Of a DNA stretch of 35,870 nucleotides, positions 13,405-30,324 are shown piece by piece; the stretch's first letter is position 1, and every line of letters starts with the position of its first letter. The notes under the pieces were generated by a model. It was not told the origin of the DNA, did not search any database, and saw only the letters and a list, made by a program, of their open reading frames with translations. The position numbers and the translations under genes are program-made. Origin of the DNA: an uncultured Methanobrevibacter sp. (GTDB taxonomy: Archaea; Methanobacteriota; Methanobacteria; Methanobacteriales; Methanobacteriaceae); assembly GCA_900314605.1 (NCBI GenBank), contig OMVX01000009.1, positions 1 to 35,870 on the forward strand. Reading direction: 5' to 3'.

Positions 13405-15003
13405 TTAAATCTCTCTTATTTTAGTAACCATATTTAAAATTCTATTCGGTGAAACTGATAGCTTATCAACACCCATATCTAATAAAACTTCGGTTAAACT
13501 TTCATCACTAGCTAATTCTCCACAGATAGAACATGAAATGCCGTTTTTATGTGCATTTTCTACACAAATTTTAATTTGCTTTAATATAGAATTGTGTCGT
13601 GTATCCAATTCTAATACAACATTATGATTTTCTCTATCACATGCTAAGGTATATTGTGTTAAATCATTTGTTCCTATACTGAAAAAATCAACTAAGGGGG
13701 CAAGTTCATCACTAATTAAAGAAGCAGCAGGTGTTTCTATCATTATCCCTTGTGGAGGAATTTCGTAAGCCTTTCCTTCTTTTTCTAATTCTTTCGCTAC
13801 TATATCTATTTGTTTATAGATAAATTTTACTTCTTTAACTGAAATAATCATAGGGTACATTATCCGTAAATTACCATGGCAACTAGCTCTTAATAATGCT
13901 TTTAATTGGGTTTTAAATAAATCCATGTAATCGAGGTAGACACGGACTCCTCTTTTTCCAAGAGCAGGATTATTTTCTTCTTTATAATCTACATACTCTA
14001 TTGGTTTATCAGATCCAATATCAATAGTACGGATTGTTACTTCTTTACCATTTAATTTTTCAAGCACAGACTTATATATTTGATATTGTTGTTCTTCTGT
14101 GGGAGGAGTTATTTTATCCATAAAAAAGAATTCAGTTCTAAATAAACCAACTCCTTGGCAGTTATTTTCAATACTTTCTTCTAAATCTGCAGAGGAAGAA
14201 ATGTTTGCGAGTACTTGAATTTCACGCCCATCGGTGGTTTGTGTTTTTAAACCTTTATTCTTTTTTAATTCTAATTTAAAATTCTCTAATTCTATTTGTT
14301 TAATTTTCATTTCTTCAATCGTTTCTTCATCAGGATTAATAATTAATTCATTTTGACTAATTATAATTGTATCTCCATTTTTTACTAAATCCATTATGTT
14401 TTCAATTCCACAAACGGTCGGTATTTGATTTTTTCTAGCCAGAATAGATGCATGAGATAAAGAAAATCCTTTTGATGAAACAAATCCTAAAACATCATTT
14501 TTTTCAAAGGCAAGAATATCATTACATGTTAATAAATCCGTTATGATAATTGAAGGTTCTTTTGGCATTACTTGCTTTTGATTTACTATATTAGATTTCA
14601 TTTGTGAAGAGATTTCATAAATGTCATTAGCTCGTTGAGAAAGATATCCATCATCCATATTTTTAAAAATTGTTACAAATTCATCACATACAATATTGAC
14701 AGCTTCATATGCACTTATCTTTGTTTTACAAATTTTTGATTTTATTGCATCAATGAAAGTGGGATCTTCAGCCATTAGTATATGTGTTTGGACAATCTCT
14801 GCTTCAAGGTCCTTTGAATCTTTTAGCATTGAGTCATACAAATGTTTTAATTTTGATTGTGTTATATTAACTGCTTTATCAAGGGTTTTTAATTCTTTCT
14901 CAATTCCTTGAAATTTATGTATAGGTTTATCAGTTTTATTTAATTTAAATGCAGGTCCAATAACAATTCCTTTTTCAATAATTTCAACATTATATTTTTT
15001 CAT
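13405..15003 (-). CDS. ptsI: PTS Enzyme I (phosphoenolpyruvate-protein phosphotransferase)
   Basis: Enzyme I takes phosphate from PEP onto a histidine and passes it to HPr, the first step of phosphotransferase sugar uptake. The 532-residue protein is slightly shorter than typical bacterial EI (about 570) but has all the key parts. The HPr-binding and phosphohistidine domains include H184 in SLSHASILARKNQIPTV. The PEP-binding barrel has GVGLFRTEFFFMD, DFFSIGTNDLTQYTLA and the catalytic Cys C494 in SICGELA. I chose ATG 15003, where the family homology begins (MKKYNVEIIEKG). The frame is open further upstream only because it overlaps ptsH. A GGAGG site lies inside the end of ptsH and only one base separates the ptsH stop from this ATG, so translation is probably coupled. 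It closest resembles Firmicute EI, so transfer from gut bacteria is likely. Confidence 0.95.
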   Translation of the reverse strand: MKKYNVEIIEKGIVIGPAFKLNKTDKPIHKFQGIEKELKTLDKAVNITQSKLKHLYDSMLKDSKDLEAEIVQTHILMAEDPTFIDAIKSKICKTKISAYEAVNIVCDEFVTIFKNMDDGYLSQRANDIYEISSQMKSNIVNQKQVMPKEPSIIITDLLTCNDILAFEKNDVLGFVSSKGFSLSHASILARKNQIPTVCGIENIMDLVKNGDTIIISQNELIINPDEETIEEMKIKQIELENFKLELKKNKGLKTQTTDGREIQVLANISSSADLEESIENNCQGVGLFRTEFFFMDKITPPTEEQQYQIYKSVLEKLNGKEVTIRTIDIGSDKPIEYVDYKEENNPALGKRGVRVYLDYMDLFKTQLKALLRASCHGNLRIMYPMIISVKEVKFIYKQIDIVAKELEKEGKAYEIPPQGIMIETPAASLISDELAPLVDFFSIGTNDLTQYTLACDRENHNVVLELDTRHNSILKQIKICVENAHKNGISCSICGELASDESLTEVLLDMGVDKLSVSPNRILNMVTKIREI

Positions 15004-15004
15004 T

Positions 15005-15259
15005 TTAAAAATTTTCCTCCATAAATTTTTTAAGATATTCAATTGCATTGGCTTCATCTGGGCCTGTAGCTTCAATAATAATAGTATCTCCTTGTTTAAC
15101 TTGTAGCATCATTATGTTCATTATACTTGAAGCATCAATTGTTTTTCCATTTAAGCTTATAGTTACTTTACTTTCAAAATTTTTAATTTCTTGTACAAGG
15201 ATTCCGGCAGGCCTTGCATGAATTCCTAATTCATTTGTTATGGTATAATTAAAATTCAT
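15005..15259 (-). CDS. ptsH: PTS phosphocarrier protein HPr
   Basis: HPr relays phosphate from Enzyme I to the sugar-specific EIIA domain. The 84-residue protein is normal length. The phosphorylated histidine is H14 in LGIHARPAG, the family signature. S45 in DASSIMNIM aligns with Ser46 of Bacillus HPr, the target of HPr kinase in Firmicutes. The start at 15259 is set by an AAGTGAT ribosome binding site that overlaps the stop codon of the upstream EIICBA gene; a longer frame to 15298 only overlaps that gene. Its position between EIICBA and ptsI with essentially no spacing shows one operon. No HPr kinase or CcpA-like gene is in the window, so the Ser45 control may be only a relic of the bacterial ancestor. 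Confidence 0.96.
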   Translation of the reverse strand: MNFNYTITNELGIHARPAGILVQEIKNFESKVTISLNGKTIDASSIMNIMMLQVKQGDTIIIEATGPDEANAIEYLKKFMEENF

Positions 15260-15263
15260 AAAA

Positions 15264-17339
15264 TCACTTTTTCTCAATTCTAAATAGTTCATTTTCATAT
15301 TTTATAGATGTTGATTCGGTTATATTGGTAATTTTTTCATTATCTTTTAACTCAGTACATACAATTGGGGAAATAGTAGACAAACCTTGGTTTTTAATAA
15401 AATCTATATCCATTTCAAGTATAGTTGTACCTTTACTTACATGTTCGCCTTCATTTGTTAGAAGTTTAAATCCTTTTCCATCTAGGGATACGGTATCAAT
15501 TCCTAAATGAACTAATATTGAAATACCATTGTCACATTCAAAAGCAAATGCATGTTTTGTAGGGGCTATGAAAGTTATGGTTCCATCTGTTGGAGCTTTA
15601 ACTTCATTATTATTTGGCTTTATAGCTATTCCTTCTCCCATAACTCCTGAAGCAAAGGTATCATCAGGAACTTCATTTAATGGAATAACTTCTCCTGATA
15701 AAGGACTTTCTATATCAATGGTATTTTTGGATAAACTAGATTCTTCTAAGGTATTTATTCCTTTAATATATTGGTCTAATTTAGCTTGGATAATATTTGC
15801 TTTTGTTCCATAAACTAATTGCACACCGGTTCCCTTTCTTTGAATGTAAATAACCTTGGTTTTATTAAGAATATCCTCGTTTATTAAGTCGGGATTTTTA
15901 ACTGTACATCTTAATCTTGTAGCACAACAATTTTGGTCTTCTATATTATCAATACCTCCTAATCCTTCAACTATTAACTTGGATCTATCATCTTTAGAAA
16001 TAGAAATACTTTCACTATTATCAATTTGAGTTGGGAATTTAACATTAAATTTAGTTATTGTAATTGTAAATGCTAAATAATAAATAATTGCAATTGCAAT
16101 TCCAATAGGTATAATAACTATCCATCCAGTTCTATCATTACCTGGAAGTATACCTAAAAAGATTAAATCCAATAGTCCTGAAGAAAATGTACATCCTACT
16201 GCAAAATTAAGTGCAACTTGCAATGCATTACACAAACCACACATTATTGCATGGAAAATGAAAAGTATTGGTACAACAGGTATAATTTGGAATTCAATTG
16301 GTTCTGTTATTCCAACTAATGCACTTGTAAGAGCTGCGGATTGCATAGCTGATTTTGTAGATTTTTTGAATTTTTTCGCAGTATGTCTGTAAATTGCATA
16401 TGCTCCAGCAGGTAAACCAAATATCATAGGTGCAAATTCTCCACCAAAATATTGGGTTACAGAAGGGGATATGTGACGAATACTTGAATCTGCAAGTTGT
16501 GCAAAGTAAATATTTTGAGCACCAACATAAGTTACTCCATTTATAACTTGTGTACCTCCAAGGGAAGTTTGCCAAAATGGTAAATAAAATACATGATGCA
16601 AACCAAAGGGAATAAGTAGCCTTTTAATGGTTGAAAATAAGAATGCACCAATTATTCCTAAATTTGAAATATAAGATGCTAAAAACACGATTCCAGATTG
16701 AATACCTGGCCAAATAATGTAGAAGATTCCACCTAAAATCATACTAGCAAAAATACTTACAATAGGTATGAAATTTGAACCTTCAAAGAATGAAAACATT
16801 GATGGCAATTCAATTTCATTAAATTTATTATTTAATAGTGCAACAACGAATCCTACTATAATTCCTCCGAAAACACCAACTTGTAATGTCGGTATTCCTA
16901 ATATAGTAGCAATCATCCCTTCTTTTGCACCTGGAAGTAATTCGCCAGTACTATTAATAACTTTTCCAAAAATTAATAAATAATTCAATGTTTCATGCAT
17001 AATTAAAAAAGATATTATTGCGGAAAGGGCTCCAATTTCTTTTTTCTTATTAGAAAATCCAATAGCAATACTTATTGCAAAAAATAAAGCTAAATTATCA
17101 ATTACAGTTTGACCAATAACTTTCATTAGTGTTAAAATTTGAAATAAGATAGTTCCTTCATGTATTAATGAACTGAGTCCTAATTGCCCAATTATTATTT
17201 CTTGAGTAAATGTTGCTCCTATTGCTAATAAAAATCCTGCAATGGGCATAAGGGTAATGGGCAGCATTATACTTTGACTTAAACGTTGTACAAAGGAAAA
17301 TACCCTTTCTTTATTAATAGAATTTTTTTCCTTATTCAT
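15264..17339 (-). CDS. PTS sugar transporter EIICBA, glucose/glucosamine family
   Basis: This membrane permease imports a hexose or amino sugar and phosphorylates it. The 691 residues run C-B-A. EIIC (about 1-445) is strongly hydrophobic with about ten membrane segments and PtsG-like motifs: LLIPFGLHHVFYLPFW, FGLPAGAYAIY and GITEPIEFQ. EIIB has the phospho-cysteine C472 in CCATRLRC. EIIA (about 545-691) has H596 and H611 (ILVHLGIDTV), spaced 15 apart like the two active-site histidines of E. coli EIIA-Glc. No phospho-relay residue is missing, so the protein should work. An AGGTA ribosome binding site precedes the ATG. It is the first gene of the operon with ptsH and ptsI. The substrate cannot be told between glucose, glucosamine and N-acetylglucosamine. 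A methanogen with this system is unexpected, and transfer from a gut Firmicute is the likely source. Confidence 0.95.
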   Translation of the reverse strand: MNKEKNSINKERVFSFVQRLSQSIMLPITLMPIAGFLLAIGATFTQEIIIGQLGLSSLIHEGTILFQILTLMKVIGQTVIDNLALFFAISIAIGFSNKKKEIGALSAIISFLIMHETLNYLLIFGKVINSTGELLPGAKEGMIATILGIPTLQVGVFGGIIVGFVVALLNNKFNEIELPSMFSFFEGSNFIPIVSIFASMILGGIFYIIWPGIQSGIVFLASYISNLGIIGAFLFSTIKRLLIPFGLHHVFYLPFWQTSLGGTQVINGVTYVGAQNIYFAQLADSSIRHISPSVTQYFGGEFAPMIFGLPAGAYAIYRHTAKKFKKSTKSAMQSAALTSALVGITEPIEFQIIPVVPILFIFHAIMCGLCNALQVALNFAVGCTFSSGLLDLIFLGILPGNDRTGWIVIIPIGIAIAIIYYLAFTITITKFNVKFPTQIDNSESISISKDDRSKLIVEGLGGIDNIEDQNCCATRLRCTVKNPDLINEDILNKTKVIYIQRKGTGVQLVYGTKANIIQAKLDQYIKGINTLEESSLSKNTIDIESPLSGEVIPLNEVPDDTFASGVMGEGIAIKPNNNEVKAPTDGTITFIAPTKHAFAFECDNGISILVHLGIDTVSLDGKGFKLLTNEGEHVSKGTTILEMDIDFIKNQGLSTISPIVCTELKDNEKITNITESTSIKYENELFRIEKK

Positions 17340-18999: not shown

Positions 19000-19630
19000 A
19001 TGGTTAAAAACCTTACAAAGATTGATATATATTCTATTAACTGGAGTTTTCACTGCTAATTTGATTATTGATATTGTTATTGCAAGTAAAACATTTGAAT
19101 TTTTTATATTTATATTTCCTTGCTCTATTATTATATTCCCTATTTTTTATATTTTAGATGATATTTTATCTGAAATTTATGGTTATAAAAAAACAAGACG
19201 TGTTATTTTTCTAGGATTTTTCATGAATCTCATAGCTATAGTTTGTTTTACTATAACTATTAATATGCCATCTCCACAATTTTTTGAACATCATAAAGCA
19301 TATGCTATAGTTTTAGGAAGTTCAACAGAATCATTGCCGCTAATTTCATTTCCTATTTAGTTGGTCATTAGTTAATGCTAAAGTTATGGTGTTTTTAAAA
19401 GATAAATATGATGGAAAAAAACTTTTCTTCAGGTGTATTTTTTCTACTATTGTTGGAGGGGGCTTAGATGCAATAATTTTTATTTTCATTGCATTTTATG
19501 GAACAATTCCGTTGTATGTATTATTAATAATGCTTATTGGGAAATATTATTTAAACCTATTTATGAGACTTTAACATACCCTATTACAAAATATATAATT
19601 AATTATATTAAATCTCTACCAGATTATTAA
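19000..19630 (+). pseudogene. frameshifted queuosine-precursor transporter (VUT/YhhQ family)
   Basis: Joined across frames, this reads as a complete member of the VUT (YhhQ) membrane family of about 210 residues, which imports 7-deazaguanine precursors of queuosine or archaeosine. The pieces are MVKNLTKIDIY from ATG 19000, then ILLTGVFTANLIIDIVIASK onward (with DDILSEIYGYKKTRR), then ANFISYLVGH, then NAKVMVFLKDKYDGKKLFFR, and finally ILFKPIYETLTYPITKYI to TAA at 19630. The joins fall near 19030, 19335, 19370 and 19540, so four single-base indels break it. Large neighbouring genes are intact, which argues against poor sequence quality. A TATA-like stretch (18966-18979) about 25 bases before the ATG and no ribosome binding site suggest the ancestral gene was leaderless. 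Confidence 0.8.
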
Positions 19631-19906: not shown

Positions 19907-22177
19907 TTATTCTAAAATTTTAAGTGTATCAGCCATATTTAATTTTCTGATTTTATATGCAAAGTATAGGTTAATACTAAACAATACTGTTAATATTATG
20001 ATAAATGTACATGAAAGATTCATTATAGATATGTTTGGCAGTATAAAGAATTTCTCACTTGATGATTTCCATATTATATTTAAAACATAGTAACCTAAAG
20101 GAATTCCTAATAAACTTCCAAGTATTATAAAAATAATACTTTGGGTTAATAATATTTTTGATAATGCAAATGTTTTAAAACCTAAAACCTTAAGTGTTCC
20201 AATATCTTGTTCCATTTCTACAAAACTTAGTAAATATAAATTATAAAGAACAATTAATGCTAAAACAATTGCAAAAAACATTAATGCATAAACTTCCATC
20301 CATAATGGTTTGTAAAGTTCTCGCCAACTATCAATCATATCCTGACGGTCAATTATTGATTTAACACCCTCATAATCTCCTGTAACATTCTTGGCACTTA
20401 TAATACTTGTAATATAATGATCTAAACCTAGTTCATTAAATTTATTCTTAGACATGATTAATCCTTGAGAAGTTGGGTTTCCATGAATTTTATCAATTTT
20501 TACATTAATCCATTTATTAGTATTATGAACACGAAAACTAACAGTTTCTCCAGCTTGAATACCCAATAAATCAGCAATTTTTTGTGAAACTGAAACTTCA
20601 TTATCTTTTATTTCTATTTTATTCTGATATTTATCTGTCGGGGTGATTAAATCTGTATCATTAACTACAAGTAATGAAGCATATTTTTTAGTATGATCTG
20701 ATTCCATTTCAGTAACTAACTCTATTATTTCAACCCCATTTACTTGTCTTGACACATCATGAATTTGGGTTTCACTAACATTATTATTTAAAATTAATTT
20801 TGACTCATAATGATTAATTTTATTAAATTGCCAATTTTCTGCATCGTTTAATCCATCATATAATCCAAATGCAGAAATTAAAAGTACAGCACAACACATA
20901 ACTCCAAAAATAGTTGTAATTGCTCTAAAACGATTTCTTTTAATATCTCTATAATTCCAACGGAAATTAAAAGATAATTTTTCCCATATTTTAAATTTTT
21001 CAATAAAAGTAGAAGTGGATGCTTTCGGTACCTTAGGTCTTATTATTGTTGAGGGATGTTCACTAACAATACTTTTAATAGAATAATATGAAACTATCAG
21101 TGCCAATAGAAACATTATTACAACTATATAAGCAAAATTCATAAAACCTGATGGCATTAAATAAGGTAATTTAAATATATTTGTCAATGGTTTGTAAGCG
21201 ATTAGGTTTATAAAAAATGGCCCTGAAATTAAACCAATTATAGATCCTGCTAATATTAATAAAGACCCATGTGACAAGTAATGTATAATTATCGAATGAT
21301 TTTTAAATCCATTAGCTTTTAAAATCCCAATTTGAGTTCTTTGATGTGTAATAATCCTTTTCATCGTAGTTACAAGCATTAATAATGAGATGAAAATAAA
21401 GACAGTTGGAAGAATAGTTGATATCATTTGAAATAGATTTATTATGTGATTAAATTGACTTACACTAGAATGCTCTTCTCTTGGTAAAAATGAATCATAG
21501 CTATCTTTTAAATTATCTGCTAATAAATTAGAATAATCTTCAGCATTTCCATTAAATTTTACATTTAAAACATTATATGGAATGTTATCATCTGGAAATG
21601 CTTTATAAGACATGTAAGCAAAACCATATTCTGAATAGTTTAGTTTTGGCATGTAATATGGTAAATCATAAACATATTCTGGCGAATAACCTAATCCTCG
21701 GATTTCTTTTTCAATTTCTATTCCATTAAACTTGAATCCAATTTTATCTCCTACTTTAAGATTTCGAGCATCTGCAAAACTCTTATCAAGCCATACTCCA
21801 TTTTCATCATCTAAATTTATTTTTTCACCTTCAATTAAATAAAACTTAGATATGGTATTGTTTTCTATAAAATGGAGTTTAATATCTGGTTCAGTAGGTA
21901 ATTTAGCATCGGAAGTAATTACAAACTGACGTTCAATCGCTGTTGTAGGCTTTAAATTATTTACATGTTCAACTAAAGCATTATCTGCATTTGTTGAAAA
22001 AATCCATCCATCGGCTAAATTAGTATCAGAATAATAATTATTAATATTTGATTCTAGAGTTATTGCTTCTTCACCAATACCTGCAAATATAAATACTCCA
22101 ACAAATGCCATTAAAAAAACAGAAATGAATTGAATTTTATAATTAGAGAGATCTCTTAACATCTTTTTGTATAACAT
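19907..22177 (-). CDS. ABC transporter permease, double FtsX/MacB type
   Basis: This 756-residue integral membrane protein contains two FtsX-type permease halves in one chain. There is a membrane helix at about 15-37, a large extracellular domain, three helices around 250-375, a fifth helix near 415, a second extracellular domain, and three helices from about 630 to 745. Such proteins pair with a LolD/MacB-type ATPase and usually extrude lipids, peptides or antibiotics, or relay mechanical signals, rather than import nutrients. The partner ATPase gene ends 38 bases upstream. An AGGGG-containing site precedes the ATG. Following the NRPS gene on the same strand, it is a candidate exporter or self-resistance pump for the NRPS product; that link rests on position only. 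Confidence 0.9.
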   Translation of the reverse strand: MLYKKMLRDLSNYKIQFISVFLMAFVGVFIFAGIGEEAITLESNINNYYSDTNLADGWIFSTNADNALVEHVNNLKPTTAIERQFVITSDAKLPTEPDIKLHFIENNTISKFYLIEGEKINLDDENGVWLDKSFADARNLKVGDKIGFKFNGIEIEKEIRGLGYSPEYVYDLPYYMPKLNYSEYGFAYMSYKAFPDDNIPYNVLNVKFNGNAEDYSNLLADNLKDSYDSFLPREEHSSVSQFNHIINLFQMISTILPTVFIFISLLMLVTTMKRIITHQRTQIGILKANGFKNHSIIIHYLSHGSLLILAGSIIGLISGPFFINLIAYKPLTNIFKLPYLMPSGFMNFAYIVVIMFLLALIVSYYSIKSIVSEHPSTIIRPKVPKASTSTFIEKFKIWEKLSFNFRWNYRDIKRNRFRAITTIFGVMCCAVLLISAFGLYDGLNDAENWQFNKINHYESKLILNNNVSETQIHDVSRQVNGVEIIELVTEMESDHTKKYASLLVVNDTDLITPTDKYQNKIEIKDNEVSVSQKIADLLGIQAGETVSFRVHNTNKWINVKIDKIHGNPTSQGLIMSKNKFNELGLDHYITSIISAKNVTGDYEGVKSIIDRQDMIDSWRELYKPLWMEVYALMFFAIVLALIVLYNLYLLSFVEMEQDIGTLKVLGFKTFALSKILLTQSIIFIILGSLLGIPLGYYVLNIIWKSSSEKFFILPNISIMNLSCTFIIILTVLFSINLYFAYKIRKLNMADTLKILE

Positions 22178-22215
22178 TAATTCACAACCCCTATAAGATT
22201 TAAAACCACTTCAAA

Positions 22216-22920
22216 TCACCATTCCAAGTCGGTGACTTTTTTTGGAGTTTCATTAAGAACAATACTTTCAACCTGACCATTTTTTATTCTAATAACCTTG
22301 TCGGCAACTTCTGTTAATAATTCATTGTGTGTAACAATAATTACTGTGGTGTTTTTATAATTGCTTAAATCTTGAAGAAGTTTTAAAATTGAAACTCCAG
22401 TATTTGAGTCAAGAGCTCCTGTTGGTTCATCACATAAAAGTATTGAGGGTTTTTTAGCGATAGCCCTCGCAATAGAGATTCTTTGTTGTTGCCCACCAGA
22501 TAACTGCGCTGGAAATTGATTTGCATAATCTTTAAGGCCTACAGAATCTAATATTTTCAAACCATCAATTTTAAAATCTACAACATCTTCCATAAGTTGT
22601 ATATTTTCTAAAGCTGTTAAATTAGGTATTAAATTATAAAACTGGAAAATAAAGCCAACATTTTTAGCTCTATATGTGGTAAGTTCATTGTCATTGAAGG
22701 ACTCTATATGATTACCATCAACAATAATCTCACCAGAACTTACAGAATCAAGGCCTCCTAAAAGATTTAAAAGGGTTGATTTACCTGCACCTGATGGGCC
22801 TAGAATAACAACAAATTCACCATGTTCTATTGTGAAATTTACATTGTTCATAGCTTTCAATACATGGTTTCCAGATTTATATTCCTTTACAACATTTTTA
22901 AATTCAACTATATTATACAT
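22216..22920 (-). CDS. ABC transporter ATP-binding protein (LolD/MacB family)
   Basis: This cytoplasmic ATPase powers the FtsX-type permease encoded next to it. The 234 residues contain all nucleotide-binding motifs: Walker A GPSGAGKST (41-49), Q-loop Q93 in FQFYNLIP, signature LSGGQQQ (140-146), Walker B ILLCDEP (160-166), a D-loop (GALD) and H-loop H198. Length and motifs are standard for the family and nothing is missing. It starts 129 bases after the end of the NRPS gene, and its partner follows after 38 bases, so the pair is one transcription unit and may be co-transcribed with the NRPS. A purine-rich AGAAGGG site precedes the ATG. Confidence 0.95.
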   Translation of the reverse strand: MYNIVEFKNVVKEYKSGNHVLKAMNNVNFTIEHGEFVVILGPSGAGKSTLLNLLGGLDSVSSGEIIVDGNHIESFNDNELTTYRAKNVGFIFQFYNLIPNLTALENIQLMEDVVDFKIDGLKILDSVGLKDYANQFPAQLSGGQQQRISIARAIAKKPSILLCDEPTGALDSNTGVSILKLLQDLSNYKNTTVIIVTHNELLTEVADKVIRIKNGQVESIVLNETPKKVTDLEW

Positions 22921-23049
22921 AATGGCCCTTCTTTTAGAAAATTTTATAAGAAATTAATTATTTATTTAGTTTAACACTTTATATAATTTATATTTTTTCT
23001 TTCTATTCAAAAAATTATTCTTTTTAATTTCAAAAATAATATTTTGAGT

Positions 23050-26000
23050 TTATATTTCATTTATTAAATTCTCCAATTTTGAAGACATATCTCCATTAAT
23101 AATATTGGATAAAATCAATTCGAAGGTATTTTTAAATTTCTGAATCATTTCATTTGAATAGTTATTTGAATTAACTATCATCATACTATAATTTTCTCCT
23201 TTTTGGAAAACTTGAACAATGAAATTTGCCATCAAATCATTTTGTTTTTCTAAAATTTCATCAAGGATATCATCTACCAGATTTGTGGACAACATTTCAT
23301 CATTATAATTAATTCCATCATAAGAAACCCAATCAGGCACATATTGGAATATTACATCAGTAGTCAAAGGGTATTTTTGATAAAGTAATAAAAGGGGATA
23401 AAAATCATATTTTGTCACACCAAAAATATTTTTGGACGAATCTTTTATAAATGATTCAATATTTTGATTTTTACAATTAATTATTAGTGGTTTGACATTT
23501 GCATATAATCCTATAGAATCCATATCATCAAATCTACCTCTTCCACTACCTATTAATAAAAATAACACTTTATCTCCTTTATTAAATCTAGACAATGTAT
23601 AAGAAAAAGCACTTGTGAATAATACATTTTTACTTATATTGTTATCATCTATAAATCTTTTTAATTTCTCATGATTTATTTCCAAATCATATGTGTCCAT
23701 GGTAAATCCTTTTGATTGTTTATCACCAACAAAAGATTTTACTTCTTCAATATCACAAAGCATAGAATCAAAGAAATCTTCAGCATCACTAAACTTTTCA
23801 GTATTTTTTACTTGATGGTTGAAGGCAGACATTTTTAAAAATCCCTCATCAACATCAACTTTACCTCCATTAAGGAAAATTTCCATACTCTGTTTAAATA
23901 CATTTGAGGATATGGCATCAAAAATAAGGTGATGAAACTTAGCAAGTAATATATATGAGTCTTCTAAATCAAAAATCTTGAACATAGATAAATAATTATA
24001 TAAATCTAAATTTTCATTGATGAAATCGTTTACTATTTCTTTATTAAAATTTGATTCGATAGTAATCGGTGGTTTAGAACCTGTTACTAAATAGGGATAC
24101 TCTCCTTTAAACAACTTCAAGATGGTACTAATCATATCATAAATTCTTTTAATGTTCCAATTTTTTTCACGAAGCAAATCAAGAAGGGACATATTTTCAG
24201 AATTATTTGAATTTCCTAATTCTTTTAATAAATTTAAATTTTCCTTAATTCGAGCTATTAGATTTTTTTTCTCTTTTGATTCATAACGTTTACTTAAATG
24301 TGTTTTTATAATCGGATGGGCATTTATTGTTTTATCTAATGCTGTAAGTATTTCTTCTAATTTATAAGTTTTAGGAATTTGTATATATGTTGGAATTTGA
24401 TAAAAATCAAAGTTATCATTTACTATAATATCTGAAAATAAACTTGCTTGCGCTTCATTTAAAGGACAACCTTCCTCTATAGAATAAATATCTAAATCAA
24501 AAGGAATATCATTAATATTTTTTGCAATTTTTCTAGGGGTACGTAAATTTAAAATATCTGCTGCAGTAATGTTATAATTTTTAAGATAAGACAATAATTT
24601 AAGAGCAGTTAGAGAATCTCCTCCTAAATTAAGAAAATCATCATAAACACTGATTTTTTCTTCATTGAATATTTTTTCAAATGCATTAACAATCTCTCTT
24701 TCTTTTTCATTGGTCGGAGCAACATATTCTACCTGTAAACTGCTTCTATCAACTTCAGGTAAACTTTGTTTATCGACTTTACCATTTACTGTTAGAGGAA
24801 TATTTTCTAAAATCATTATAAATGAGGGTACCATATAATCTGGCTTATAGGAAGAAACATAATCACAAATCTTTTTTTGAATTGAATCGGTTATAGTTTT
24901 ATTATCTACAACAACATAGGCAACTAATTCATTATTTCCTCTTTCATTAATTGTTTGAACAGTAACATCTTTAATGAAATCCATGTTTCGTATTATTGAT
25001 TCTACTTCAGAAAGTTCAACACGATTTCCTCGTATTTTAACCTGTCCATCACGACGACCTACCATTCCAATTGTTCCATCAGGTAAAACTCTTACTAAAT
25101 CTCCTGTATAATACATTAGACCATAATTTTCATTATCATCAAATGGGTTTTTAACAAAAACTTTTTCTGTTTCCATCTGGCGATTTAAATAGCCATGGGC
25201 AACTTGTTTTCCTACAATACATAATTCTCCTATAGCACCTATTGGCACTCGCCGACATTCATTATCTAAGATATAAGCTTTAATATTGGTAAATAGATGG
25301 CCAATTGAGCTAGAATCAATCTTATTATTTACATCTATAGCACAAACTGCAACACAACATTCAGTTGGTCCATAGGAATCATGGAATGTATATTCAACAG
25401 TTGTGTTGACTAGACCTAATTTTTCTCCACCTGTAATTAAAACCTTTAGTGAAGTTTCATCAATCTCTTCAATAAATGCTCTGACTACTTGGGTAGGGAG
25501 TGTTGTATGGGTAACATTTTTTTCAATAAAATGTTTATTTAACTTATGCATATTTAGTCTAATGTCTTTCGGGATAATATCTAAACATGCTCCTGCATAT
25601 ATTGGAGAACACATACCTCTAATTGCACTTACGTCAAAGCCAATTGAAGAAAACAATGAATAGGTTGAGGTACTCTTCAATTTATATTCGTTGAGGTAAA
25701 AATCAACATAGTTCGTAATTCCTTCTCTAGTAATTTTAACCCCTTTAGGAACACCAGTTGTACCACTAGTATATAAAATACAAGCTAAATCACCATAAAC
25801 ATAAGGTAATGTTGATAGGCTATCAATATTACTTTTAATGATATTTGAAATGTTTAAAAGCTTAATGTTTTCATCAATATTTTTAATAATATTTTCTCCA
25901 CGATTATATGTTTCATCACTAACAATAACAACAGGTGAGGCACAATCTTTTATCATGAATTTAATCCGTTCATCTGGTAAATCATCATCCAATGGAACAT

Positions 26001-29000
26001 AAACACCACCAACAGATAAAATACCTAATACACAAAAAATATAAAGTTCTGAACGTTCTACGAAAAAGGAAACAGAATCCTGTAAATTAATACCTAATTT
26101 TACCAATTCTTTAGCTAATATATCAGCAATATATCCTCCTTCTCCATATGAATAAGATATATCATTATAGGATACAAGTTTATTACGAGGATATTTTCTT
26201 AGATTCTCATTAAAAGCTTCTAATATATCTGTGAACTTTAAATCTTTTTCAGTTTGATTATATTTGTCTAATATTTTTAAATCTGAATCTGTTGTATAAT
26301 TTATTTCTGATAATTTTTTTACATTCATCATTTCTTTTATAATTAATTTGTATGTTCTTGTAAAATTTTCAACAAATTCTTTGGAGTATTTTTCTGAATA
26401 TAGTATTCTGATTCCATATTCATTATTTTCTCTATTAAAAATAAAAAAGGAAAAGTCTTCTATAATATCATGTTTTAAATCAATAACCTCATATGATGAA
26501 TTTTCATTGTTTATTAGACTGTTGAAGAGGTCATGAGAATATTGGAATATGATATTTGATTTTATTTCATATTCCTTAGCTAAGATATGGAAGGGGTATA
26601 AATCATATTTTATTGCTGTTTTAATTAAGTTACTTGTATAATCTAAAAAACTAGATATGTTCTGGTTATTACAATCAATTAAAAGTGGAAGTGTTTGTGC
26701 AAACATTCCTATTGATTTAGATAAATCAAAATGCCCTCTACCATTATCTATTATATTGAATAAGATTTTTGAAGACCATGCAAATCTTGATAATGTATAA
26801 GCAAATGCGCTGCAGAAGAATTGGTTTGCTGTAATAGAATGTTGGGATAAAAATGATTTTAATTCATTGTTATTGATGCTGATATTATCATTATATTCAT
26901 ATTCTTCATTTTTGCATGTTTTAACTGAATCTAATAATTCATATACTTCATCTCTATCAGTTAACATAGAATCAAAGAATTCATGGGCTTTTAACATATA
27001 TTCTTCATTAAGGTTTTCTTCATAGGAAATTTGTCTTAATATGCCGTCATCGAGTAAATCTAAATCATGATCTTCCAATATTGAGCTTATGCAATTTAAT
27101 ATTATATTTATTGAACTTCCATCAAAGATTAGATGGTGTATATCAAAACATAAATAATTAGATTTTTCTTCTTCTACTATTAAAAATTTAGATAAATTTT
27201 TATCTAATTTAAATGGTTGTACAAAATTTTTAATGTCCTTTTGTGTTCCATAATGGATTTGAGGTTTACTATCAAAACTAAATAATACCTCACCTTTCTC
27301 TTTTATTACACGAGCTAATAAAATTGGATAAATATCATATAATTTATTTATTGTTTTTTCTATTTTATTTTTTGAATATTTTTTATTGAATTTTATTATA
27401 AATGGGTTATTATAGCCTGTATTTGTATTATTTACAATTTCGTCTAGGTAAACATTTAATTGTGATTGGGATAATGGATATTTATCTTTAAATGTATAAT
27501 TTGTACTGTTTTTTAAGTGAATGTCTTTATTAAATTTTATATAGTCTGTAATATTAAGTGGTGTTTTTAGTTCTATAATTTTTATAGAGTCTAAGTGTAC
27601 TTCTAATTTTTCTTTTAAATATATTTGGAGTTTCATTGCTGATAATGAGTTTCCACCTAATTTTATAAAATCATCTTTTAAGAAAATATTCTTCTGATTT
27701 AAAACTTCTTTAAATCCATTTACCACTACTTTTAATACATTATCGTCAATTTCAATATTTTCTTCTTCTCCATTTTCGATAATTTTATTTAATCTTATTT
27801 TATCAAGTTTACCATTTGCTGTTAACGGAATTTTGTCTAATTTAATAAAAATTGATGGAATCATATATGGAGGTAATTCAAGTTTTAAAGCCTCTTTTAC
27901 ATTGTCAATATTCAAATGATTTGTGGTTGTATAGTATGCTATAAGGTTATCATGGTCACTATCTAAATAAACATTGTTGATTTCTTTAAAATTTTTCATA
28001 ATTTTTAGTATTTCGTTGGATTCTATACGAAATCCTCTAACTGATAATTGGTCGTCTTCTCGGGATATATATTCTATCATCCCATCGAAATTATAAAAGC
28101 CTATATCTCCTGTTCGATACATTCTTTTATTTTCGCTACAGGTAGAATTGATATTTTCTACAAAGCTTTTATTTGTTAAGTCAGGTCTATTATAATAACC
28201 AGGACTTAAATATTCGCTTGCAATGCATATTTCTCCTGGAACTCCTATTGGCATAGGCATACTATTTTCATCTAGAATATATGCCCAAGTATTAGCCACT
28301 GCTTTACCAAGTGGAAAACTTTTATTATTTTTACTTATATTATAATTATTTACTATGGCCATTATTAGTTCTGTTGTACCGTAAAAATTAACTAATTGTG
28401 TATTGCTTTTTTTATTTGTTAATTCATTTAATTCTGCACCTGCTAAAATCATATGTTTTAATTTTAAATCTTCATTTTCAAATATGGGAATACCTACTGC
28501 TGGAGGTAAGATTATATCTCCTATTTCTTTTTCTTTAAGAGTTTTAATCAATAATAGACTGTCTTTTTGTTCATGTTCATTTAATATTCGTATGGTTTCA
28601 CCAAAAATAAATGAAACAAACATTCGAATAGATGCAATAAAACTAAAACTAGCATAATAGGCCATAACATCCTTAGCAGATATTTCAAAAAGGTCTTTAA
28701 AAGCTGTGGCCATACCATTAATCTGTTTGTTAGAAACCATAACTCCTTTTGGGATACCGGTAGTTCCAGATGTGAATATTATGGCAAATAAATCTTCTAC
28801 ACTCCCCTTATATTTCACATTCTTGTTATAATCTTTATTTAGATCTTCAATATATAAAATCTCTTTACCTAAATCTTTTAAATTATATTCTTTGGTTGTT
28901 ATAATGTAGGTTGATTCACTTATGTTTATCATATGTTCGATACGTTTTAAAGGGTATTCAGGGTCGATTGGTGTGAATATGGCTCCAATTTTGTTTAATG

Positions 29001-30324
29001 CTAATACAATTTCGCCAAAATGATAGGTTCTCGGAAGCATTAATGCTACACAGTCTCCATGGCCAATATTGTAATTTTTATTTAAATCATATGCTATGGA
29101 ATTTGTTGAAAGTTCTAGTTGTTTATATGTTATTTCATTGATTCCGTCATCAATGGCTATTAAATCAGGATATTTTAGTGCATTTTCATGAAAAGCCATG
29201 GCTAAAGTTTTTTCTTTATCTACTTTAATTGTTTTTCCTTTAGAAAAGTTAGATAAAGTGTTTTTTTCTTCAGAGGATAGGATTTCAATATTCCAACATT
29301 CTTGATTTGGATTTTCTACAAGATTATCAATTAATGTAAGGATATTTTCCATCATATGGTTGATATATTCATCAGTAAATATGTCTGTATTATAAATTAG
29401 TTCTAAATCATCTTCATATACATTTAATGTTAGAGCATCATTAGTTGTGTTAAGTATAGTTAAATTTTTAAATTTTGTTAAATCCTGTATTGAGTAATAT
29501 GATAAATTTTTATCTGTATAATAGTTTATATTAACCTTTGTTTTTTCTACAGTCTGTTTATAAACAGTTTTAACTTCTGTTAAGTGTTTAATAACTGTAT
29601 TATTTTTGTGATATTTTATTTTTACTAATGATTTTTTATCTACTTTATTTTCATGTATTAATGTTTTGAGTAGGCATCCTTTTGTTCTATCAATTCTAGA
29701 TAAGTATAAAGAGAATATTCCAGTTACAAATTCAAATTTACTTATGTTCTGTTTTTTAATGAATTTTTTGACTGTTTGATTTTTGAGTGTCGCTCTTTTA
29801 CTTTTATAATTATTTGTTTTTAGATTATAAAATTTAATATATTCTCCAATGTCTGATAATTGGTTTTTCCAATATTCTTCATCTTTTTTAAAATCACTTG
29901 AGTTTAAATATTTTTTTAGCTTAATATAATCTAAGTTAAGATTATTTTCATAGGAAAAATCCTTATTATTAAATAGGGGATATATTTTTTTTAAAGGAAT
30001 GTAATCTAAATATGATATGTGGATATTAGCTAATATTATCAATTTATCTTTGTTTTTTAGAAATAGGAATTTAGATAATGGGCAATTAACAGTTTTATTA
30101 TATGTAAATTTAAAAAAGGAGGTAATATTTTTATTAATTTCTCTCTGATTTAAATTGGATAAATCTTTATATTCACTAATTTTTTCATCTTTAGATAGGT
30201 AGGGTTTAAAATTTTCATCAATTTTTAGATTAAAGTTAGAATTTATTTTTTCTATAATACTCTCTACTTGGTTTTCATTTATTGATTCTATATCAAATCT
30301 TATTTTAATTTCTTGACAATTCAT
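23050..30324 (-). CDS. two-module non-ribosomal peptide synthetase (C*-A-T-C-A-T-C)
   Basis: This 2424-residue enzyme should assemble a small peptide-like product from thioester-bound units. A degenerate condensation domain (about 1-350) has lost the HHxxxDG motif (H102-I-S-Y-L-D107-Y). A1 (about 375-865) has SGTTGIPKG near 515 but Ser561 in place of the substrate-binding Asp. T1 carries the phosphopantetheine site S893 (GGNSLSA). C2 has an intact HHLIFDG at 1063-1069. A2 (about 1395-1870) has SGTTGVPKG near 1520, SYGPTE and Asp1564 in FDVSAIRG. T2 carries S1904 (GGDSLTA). The terminal C domain has HHLIFDA at 2131-2137. There is no thioesterase or reductase domain, and no MbtH or phosphopantetheinyl transferase gene in the window. 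NRPSs are rare in archaea but known in rumen Methanobrevibacter. The gene lies directly upstream of an ABC exporter pair. The ATG at 30324 has a modest GGT-containing ribosome binding site. Confidence 0.96.
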   Translation of the reverse strand: MNCQEIKIRFDIESINENQVESIIEKINSNFNLKIDENFKPYLSKDEKISEYKDLSNLNQREINKNITSFFKFTYNKTVNCPLSKFLFLKNKDKLIILANIHISYLDYIPLKKIYPLFNNKDFSYENNLNLDYIKLKKYLNSSDFKKDEEYWKNQLSDIGEYIKFYNLKTNNYKSKRATLKNQTVKKFIKKQNISKFEFVTGIFSLYLSRIDRTKGCLLKTLIHENKVDKKSLVKIKYHKNNTVIKHLTEVKTVYKQTVEKTKVNINYYTDKNLSYYSIQDLTKFKNLTILNTTNDALTLNVYEDDLELIYNTDIFTDEYINHMMENILTLIDNLVENPNQECWNIEILSSEEKNTLSNFSKGKTIKVDKEKTLAMAFHENALKYPDLIAIDDGINEITYKQLELSTNSIAYDLNKNYNIGHGDCVALMLPRTYHFGEIVLALNKIGAIFTPIDPEYPLKRIEHMINISESTYIITTKEYNLKDLGKEILYIEDLNKDYNKNVKYKGSVEDLFAIIFTSGTTGIPKGVMVSNKQINGMATAFKDLFEISAKDVMAYYASFSFIASIRMFVSFIFGETIRILNEHEQKDSLLLIKTLKEKEIGDIILPPAVGIPIFENEDLKLKHMILAGAELNELTNKKSNTQLVNFYGTTELIMAIVNNYNISKNNKSFPLGKAVANTWAYILDENSMPMPIGVPGEICIASEYLSPGYYNRPDLTNKSFVENINSTCSENKRMYRTGDIGFYNFDGMIEYISREDDQLSVRGFRIESNEILKIMKNFKEINNVYLDSDHDNLIAYYTTTNHLNIDNVKEALKLELPPYMIPSIFIKLDKIPLTANGKLDKIRLNKIIENGEEENIEIDDNVLKVVVNGFKEVLNQKNIFLKDDFIKLGGNSLSAMKLQIYLKEKLEVHLDSIKIIELKTPLNITDYIKFNKDIHLKNSTNYTFKDKYPLSQSQLNVYLDEIVNNTNTGYNNPFIIKFNKKYSKNKIEKTINKLYDIYPILLARVIKEKGEVLFSFDSKPQIHYGTQKDIKNFVQPFKLDKNLSKFLIVEEEKSNYLCFDIHHLIFDGSSINIILNCISSILEDHDLDLLDDGILRQISYEENLNEEYMLKAHEFFDSMLTDRDEVYELLDSVKTCKNEEYEYNDNISINNNELKSFLSQHSITANQFFCSAFAYTLSRFAWSSKILFNIIDNGRGHFDLSKSIGMFAQTLPLLIDCNNQNISSFLDYTSNLIKTAIKYDLYPFHILAKEYEIKSNIIFQYSHDLFNSLINNENSSYEVIDLKHDIIEDFSFFIFNRENNEYGIRILYSEKYSKEFVENFTRTYKLIIKEMMNVKKLSEINYTTDSDLKILDKYNQTEKDLKFTDILEAFNENLRKYPRNKLVSYNDISYSYGEGGYIADILAKELVKLGINLQDSVSFFVERSELYIFCVLGILSVGGVYVPLDDDLPDERIKFMIKDCASPVVIVSDETYNRGENIIKNIDENIKLLNISNIIKSNIDSLSTLPYVYGDLACILYTSGTTGVPKGVKITREGITNYVDFYLNEYKLKSTSTYSLFSSIGFDVSAIRGMCSPIYAGACLDIIPKDIRLNMHKLNKHFIEKNVTHTTLPTQVVRAFIEEIDETSLKVLITGGEKLGLVNTTVEYTFHDSYGPTECCVAVCAIDVNNKIDSSSIGHLFTNIKAYILDNECRRVPIGAIGELCIVGKQVAHGYLNRQMETEKVFVKNPFDDNENYGLMYYTGDLVRVLPDGTIGMVGRRDGQVKIRGNRVELSEVESIIRNMDFIKDVTVQTINERGNNELVAYVVVDNKTITDSIQKKICDYVSSYKPDYMVPSFIMILENIPLTVNGKVDKQSLPEVDRSSLQVEYVAPTNEKEREIVNAFEKIFNEEKISVYDDFLNLGGDSLTALKLLSYLKNYNITAADILNLRTPRKIAKNINDIPFDLDIYSIEEGCPLNEAQASLFSDIIVNDNFDFYQIPTYIQIPKTYKLEEILTALDKTINAHPIIKTHLSKRYESKEKKNLIARIKENLNLLKELGNSNNSENMSLLDLLREKNWNIKRIYDMISTILKLFKGEYPYLVTGSKPPITIESNFNKEIVNDFINENLDLYNYLSMFKIFDLEDSYILLAKFHHLIFDAISSNVFKQSMEIFLNGGKVDVDEGFLKMSAFNHQVKNTEKFSDAEDFFDSMLCDIEEVKSFVGDKQSKGFTMDTYDLEINHEKLKRFIDDNNISKNVLFTSAFSYTLSRFNKGDKVLFLLIGSGRGRFDDMDSIGLYANVKPLIINCKNQNIESFIKDSSKNIFGVTKYDFYPLLLLYQKYPLTTDVIFQYVPDWVSYDGINYNDEMLSTNLVDDILDEILEKQNDLMANFIVQVFQKGENYSMMIVNSNNYSNEMIQKFKNTFELILSNIINGDMSSKLENLINEI

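Follow-up and report, generated by a model that had tools for sequence, protein, structure and literature searches.

On the minus strand of the window (the whole analyzed stretch of 35,870 nucleotides from an uncultured Methanobrevibacter sp.), three consecutive genes encode a nonribosomal peptide synthetase (NRPS; positions 23050 to 30324, 2,424 amino acids), an ABC transporter ATPase (22216 to 22920, 234 amino acids), and an ABC permease (19907 to 22177, 756 amino acids). The original prediction of an intact NRPS gene followed at 129 bases by an ATPase and at a further 38 bases by a double-FtsX permease holds to the exact base in open reading frames, strand, and gaps. The NRPS reading frame is free of stops across 2,424 codons. 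The parts of the cassette were identified with Pfam and NCBIfam, and the Pfam matches comprise AMP-binding (two), Condensation, PP-binding (two), ABC_tran, and FtsX (two). The A+T-rich gap between the NRPS and ATPase genes (22921 to 23049) could contain a separate promoter; TATA-like strings in the gaps mean little because the G+C content is approximately 26%. Upstream of the cassette are orf96 (PRA-PH family), a gene for a CBS protein, gatB, and a radical SAM gene, and downstream are a short Vut_1-like ORF, larB, a PTS operon, and hypF. The search for further biosynthetic genes in the window returned none besides the NRPS, in agreement with the proposal of a minimal locus with one assembly line and one transporter, and no long flanking repeats, which would be marks of a mobile element, were found at the cassette. 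Judging by its relatives, the window probably has a rumen provenance.

The permease search covered 119 genomes, and the six closest homologs (59 to 70% identity) were read with their flanks. An intact NRPS ortholog followed by the ATPase and permease genes on one strand is present in four other Methanobrevibacter genomes (G117, G072, G102, and G084), with NRPS identities to the window of 65%, 59%, 55%, and 57%, respectively, and permease identities of 63 to 70%. The ABC genes lie downstream of the NRPS, on the same strand, in every intact cassette. Because four other genomes have the identical gene order and strand, the NRPS-ABC linkage is real and not a chance adjacency, and the anticipated conservation of the pairing is borne out. 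In a permease tree, the six NRPS-linked permeases form one clade (support, 100/100) with that of G113, a genome carrying the ABC pair without an NRPS and with no NRPS remnant next to the ABC genes. The NRPS-linkage label is clustered on this tree (3 changes versus a shuffled mean of 6.3). In G078, intact ABC genes adjoin a broken NRPS, and a second, decayed NRPS-permease copy is also present. Named copies of the related genomes are Methanobrevibacter MAGs, of which one is labeled reindeer and others bear RUG isolate names.

Three further observations concern these loci. The broken NRPS copies of G078, one by the intact ABC genes and one by a broken permease, are located at L094 (55 to 10703) and L221 (6879 to 16415) and could reflect decay or sequencing error. 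The ATPase gene of G117 (L089, 3232 to 3924) has one in-frame stop, and the NRPS and permease genes of this genome are intact. The more distant permeases occur in other gene contexts, with one exception: in G138 (L218, 2 to 5163), only 8 bases separate the end of an NRPS gene from a permease gene that belongs to a different clade, a second NRPS-permease pairing beside which no ATPase was found.

Outside the cassette-bearing genomes, orf96 and larB are parted by one short ORF alone in two genomes of the same genus (G001 and G002) and in one of another genus (G089). This ORF is acetyltransferase-like, measures approximately 190 to 230 amino acids, and has no counterpart in the window; the NRPS, ABC, and PTS genes are missing between orf96 and larB in all three genomes. 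G002 lacks the cassette, and the permeases of G001 and G003 are 40 to 41% identical to that of the window. The neighboring genes differ among the cassette loci, the exceptions being those of G102 and G084 and a few genes common to G117 and the intact-ABC locus of G078. The simplest reading of these gene orders is that the cassette was inserted in the window's lineage. The patchy presence, the differing flanks, and the contiguous locus in congeners argue for its horizontal transfer. A gatB tree left the order of the genera open and did not discriminate between vertical descent of the cassette and its transfer from genus to genus.

The NRPS is organized as C1-A1-T1-C2-A2-T2-C3 (C, condensation; A, adenylation; T, carrier), all on the minus strand, and has the A, T, and C domains, carrier serines, and at least one intact HHxxxDG motif of a modular NRPS. 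The N-terminal domain with a condensation fold, C1 (29230 to 30324), is followed by A1 (27775 to 29211) and by the carrier domain T1 (27535 to 27753), with the motif LGGNSL and Ser893. The second module consists of C2 (26290 to 27486), with an intact HHLIFDG motif, the amino-acid-type adenylation domain A2 (24751 to 26235), and T2 (24511 to 24717), with LGGDSL and Ser1904. The terminal condensation domain C3 (23053 to 24477), a candidate for product release, carries HHLIFDA at 23914 to 23934. The corresponding HH[LM]IFDA motif is found in the terminal C domain of 5/5 orthologs, and HHxxxDA is likewise the last such motif in the archaeal NRPSs L041, L042, L218, L219, and L220. Pfam detected no thioesterase or reductase domain in the NRPS, and no ketoreductase, N-methyltransferase, or twin T2 was found in it. 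A predicted structure of C3 was unusable (pLDDT 33) and was set aside.

The substrate-binding residues of the two adenylation domains, taken from HMMER alignments and one local alignment, differ at the position of the aspartate that binds the amino group (Asp235). When aligned to LgrA, A1 has Ile at this position (codon at 28636 to 28638), and A2 retains the aspartate. The A2 code, read by eye off the HMMER alignment, is D-V-I-T-I-G-S-V-A-K; it is identical in four of the five orthologs, with the Asp kept. Adenylation domains without Asp235 are also able to accept beta-amino, aryl, or fatty acids. Keto-acid A domains typically have an aliphatic residue at the Asp235 position (PMC10949194).

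From this domain anatomy and the residue states, we infer an amino-free starter, one amino acid, and release by C3. In the proposed mechanism, C1 would be structural only, and A1 would load T1 with a carboxylic acid that has no alpha-amino group (a hydroxy, keto, or short branched acid). C2 would form an amide bond between this acid and one amino acid that A2 had put on T2. C3 would then free the product, either by cyclization or oligomerization as in fungal depsipeptide synthetases or by condensing it with a free nucleophile. The predicted product would be a small hydrophobic acyl- or hydroxyacyl-aminoacyl compound that enters the membrane and could be extracted by the FtsX-type (type VII) ABC pair, an extraction that would amount to export and self-protection together. 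We favor, with modest confidence, a reading in which the three genes form a horizontally spread cassette for the synthesis and export of one small acyl-peptide, combining an amino-free starter, C3 release, and type VII ABC extraction. The missing ketoreductase, N-methyltransferase, and twin T2, the other acids open to Asp235-less A domains, and the stop in the G117 ATPase count against this reading, as does the NRPS-free ABC pair of G113, which suggests that the transporter may serve another use.

The ATPase belongs to the LolD/MacB/DevA class and has intact Walker A, Walker B, and signature motifs. The permease contains two FtsX domains, approximately eight hydrophobic transmembrane segments, and two large regions between these segments; a MacB-like periplasmic core domain gave no Pfam match in it and a weak match in its bacterial counterparts. 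With a separate ATPase and a permease bearing FtsX domains, the pair falls in the type VII ABC class, and it matches the named families (YbbAP, LolCDE, and MacB) weakly. Only two FtsX-domain genes are present in the window genome, the cassette permease, which is its sole double-FtsX permease, and a single-FtsX gene on contig C24. For one related type VII system, YbbAP-TesA, extraction of hydrophobic compounds from the membrane has been reported (PMC12646458). The partner of the NRPS had been taken for a pump; the ABC pair itself stands, but simple cytoplasmic pumping requires correction, since transporters of the type VII class may extract or detoxify a compound. Export, immunity, or both are possible roles.

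The pair might instead be a self-immunity or envelope-stress device that rids the membrane of foreign peptides or of the NRPS product, the product itself leaving through a remote MatE protein or by diffusion. FtsX-type transporters of the MacB and LolCDE families work at the outer side of the membrane, which is consistent with such a device. So are the ABC pair of G113, the MatE genes near other NRPS loci of the window genome, and the breadth of the permease family, which is matched in 73 of the 119 genomes and mostly has no adjoining NRPS where flanks were read. However, the ABC genes linked to an NRPS group in a clade of their own and keep their strand and their place downstream of the NRPS in all intact cassettes, and we regard a device of this kind as possible but rather doubtful.

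The product could also be an ordinary two-amino-acid compound, such as a diketopiperazine or dipeptide amide, if A1 takes an unusual alpha-amino acid and C3 cyclizes or amidates the chain. Two A-T modules with a terminal C domain would accommodate this chemistry, and the remaining core motifs of A1 look intact. Against it, the Asp235 position is I, V, or M in 10/10 tested members of the A1 clade, bacterial ones included, and the A1-type domains (n = 10) form a clade separate from the A2-type domains; a dipeptide is accordingly an unlikely product. The cassette might, alternatively, be decaying or silent, with NRPS expression lost, as the broken copies in G078 and the stop in the G117 ATPase would allow. 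The three window genes are intact, however, and catalytic motifs are kept in C2, both A domains, both T domains, and C3, making decay improbable.

C1 lacks the catalytic second histidine and would presumably be structural only. Its motif, HISYLDY (30001 to 30021), was identified by alignment, and the assignment of the domain to the condensation fold also draws on an AF2 model (pLDDT 79, pTM 0.80) that matches C domains in Foldseek searches (best E, 3e-20). In 5/6 aligned relatives, HxxxxDY replaces HHxxxDG with the second histidine gone, and the sixth relative lacks the first histidine as well. An N-acylated lipopeptide with C1 as a lipo-initiating starter domain, a role often tied to N-terminal C domains and argued for Methanobrevibacter ruminantium (PMC2812497), is very improbable, as the second histidine is absent in every relative whose N terminus was read and the ORFs of G072 and G084 start past the C1 motif region, which weakens the surface-lipopeptide option first raised for the locus.

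The reading in which the cassette makes and exports an acyl-peptide can be set beside known systems. The fungal iterative depsipeptide synthetases BbBEAS and BbBSLS share the C1-A1-T1-C2-A2-T2-C3 order and a terminal C domain in place of a thioesterase (PMC5457498). In these beauvericin and bassianolide synthetases, C1 shows no condensation activity but is required for expression, and C3 makes an ester bond (PMC5457498). The window NRPS has a C1 without the catalytic histidine; unlike the fungal enzymes, it has no N-methyltransferase, a single T2, and HHxIFDA in C3 where they have Ser at the first position. We suggest this analogy as one of a way of working, not of descent, and claim no membership. 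The best NCBIfam match of the NRPS is the aureusimine synthetase AusA (NF047350), which also has two A-T modules, but the score is 970 against a cutoff of 2500, and the window NRPS has no C-terminal reductase domain. YbbAP, LolCDE, and MacB (PMC12646458, PMC5985334) likewise combine a small ATPase with an FtsX permease; the window pair differs in having FtsX doubled in one chain, in being archaeal and cassette-borne, and in showing no MacA/TolC or TesA partner. The M. ruminantium M1 loci mru_0068/0069 and mru_0351/0352 similarly place a methanogen NRPS beside a transporter, with the phosphopantetheinyl transferase elsewhere, but feature MatE efflux proteins and thioesterase ends (Leahy 2010, PMC2812497). 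Neither a terminal thioesterase nor an adjacent MatE is present at the window locus; its NRPS ends in a C domain, and its transporter is the type VII ABC pair.

The window genome (2.37 Mb in 103 contigs, 98.95% complete, 3.83% contamination) contains 21 condensation-domain matches over seven contigs, and the window NRPS is thus one of several. MatE (L040 and L043), asparagine synthase, and other genes lie near the other NRPS loci of this genome; relatives of the window permease were not found there, and the lone ABC ATPase match close to another NRPS is 33% identical. A second NRPS of the genome (L042, 3945 to 13743) and one of the congener G002 (L049, 1604 to 12615) are both near asparagine-synthase and abhydrolase-CBS genes. 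The phosphopantetheinyl transferase that was expected elsewhere in the genome is indeed present as a single Sfp/AASDHPPT-type gene (C24, 20958 to 21245). Across 36 Methanobacteriaceae genomes (G000 to G035), the transferase occurs in 12/13 of those with NRPS-sized matches and in 0/23 of those without (Fisher p of 1e-8, with the kinship of the genomes ignored); the enzyme required for activity therefore travels with the NRPS genes. The earlier view that such genes are confined to a few rumen Methanobrevibacter gives way to one of common occurrence in Methanobrevibacter, with 687 clusters counted across 125 genomes of rumen archaea in a 2021 survey (PMC8241843). The survey describes clusters in Methanobrevibacter that are patchy among close relatives and resemble Firmicutes NRPSs.

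Related NRPSs were found by an alignment-based scan of the genome collection; a single-sequence pattern scan gave nothing. Two are carried by gut Clostridia MAGs, a Lachnospiraceae from sheep rumen (L145, 6211 to 19705) and a Eubacterium from goat omasum (L143, 5538 to 19588), on contigs of 46 to 50% G+C with bacterial neighbors. They are 41 to 48% identical to the window NRPS over long stretches, and the type was found in 1/299 sampled Lachnospiraceae genomes. Directly upstream of each NRPS, in the same orientation, the bacterium has an ATPase gene and an FtsX permease gene of its own, and pairing with this transporter type therefore recurs; since the archaeal and Clostridia permeases share approximately 21% identity, the pairing is alike but its partner genes are different. 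The A-domain tree, which included bacterial outgroups, places the Clostridia A2 and A3 domains inside a set of 38 Methanobrevibacter domains. A constraint uniting the archaeal rows was rejected (p-AU, 0.014), which is moderate evidence because the group was picked after the first tree had been seen. Transfer of the NRPS from archaeon to bacterium appears to be the better reading of these trees when set against a bacterial origin. A bacterial origin has been proposed for archaeal NRPSs in general (PMC2812497, PMC8241843), and both events can have occurred at different depths. Tentatively, ruminant-associated methanogens may have evolved depsipeptide-type synthetases of their own, with an amino-free starter unit and release by a condensation domain; in one branch, the synthetase would have become part of a mobile three-gene cassette together with a type VII ABC exporter, and gut Clostridia would have received the synthetase type from the archaea, a transfer of a secondary-metabolite pathway between the domains of life.

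The function of methanogen NRPSs has been a standing question since 2010, and no product of any of them was found in the papers searched. Methanobrevibacter NRPSs with MatE neighbors were already known; the ABC cassette and the starter type appear to be new. Within the literature searched, which covered few subscription papers, we found no prior description of the starter clade without Asp235, of the bacterial copies nested among archaeal ones, or of the ABC cassette. The authors of the 2021 survey (PMC8241843) favor a bacterial origin, and the available portion of it mentions no paired exporter, no chemistry of the starter, and no transfer from archaea to bacteria. A conserved synthetase and transporter unit with an unusual starter domain points to specific biochemistry, namely, the substrate of A1, release by C3, and the cargo of the ABC pair. 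If the trees hold, archaea would have donated a natural-product enzyme to gut bacteria, the reverse of the direction proposed so far.

Two neighbors of the cassette are of separate note. The Vut_1-like ORF (19022 to 19360, plus strand, 112 amino acids) matches under half the length of the Pfam model and is possibly a truncated transporter gene. Between hypF and larB, the minus strand carries a complete bacterial-type sugar PTS operon (13405 to 17339) with EI, HPr, and an EIICBA of the glucose/N-acetylglucosamine class, an operon that congeners lack at the corresponding locus. Among 137 Methanobacteriaceae genomes, that of the window alone gave a match to PTS_EIIC, and the closest plasmid-borne relatives are approximately 38% identical.
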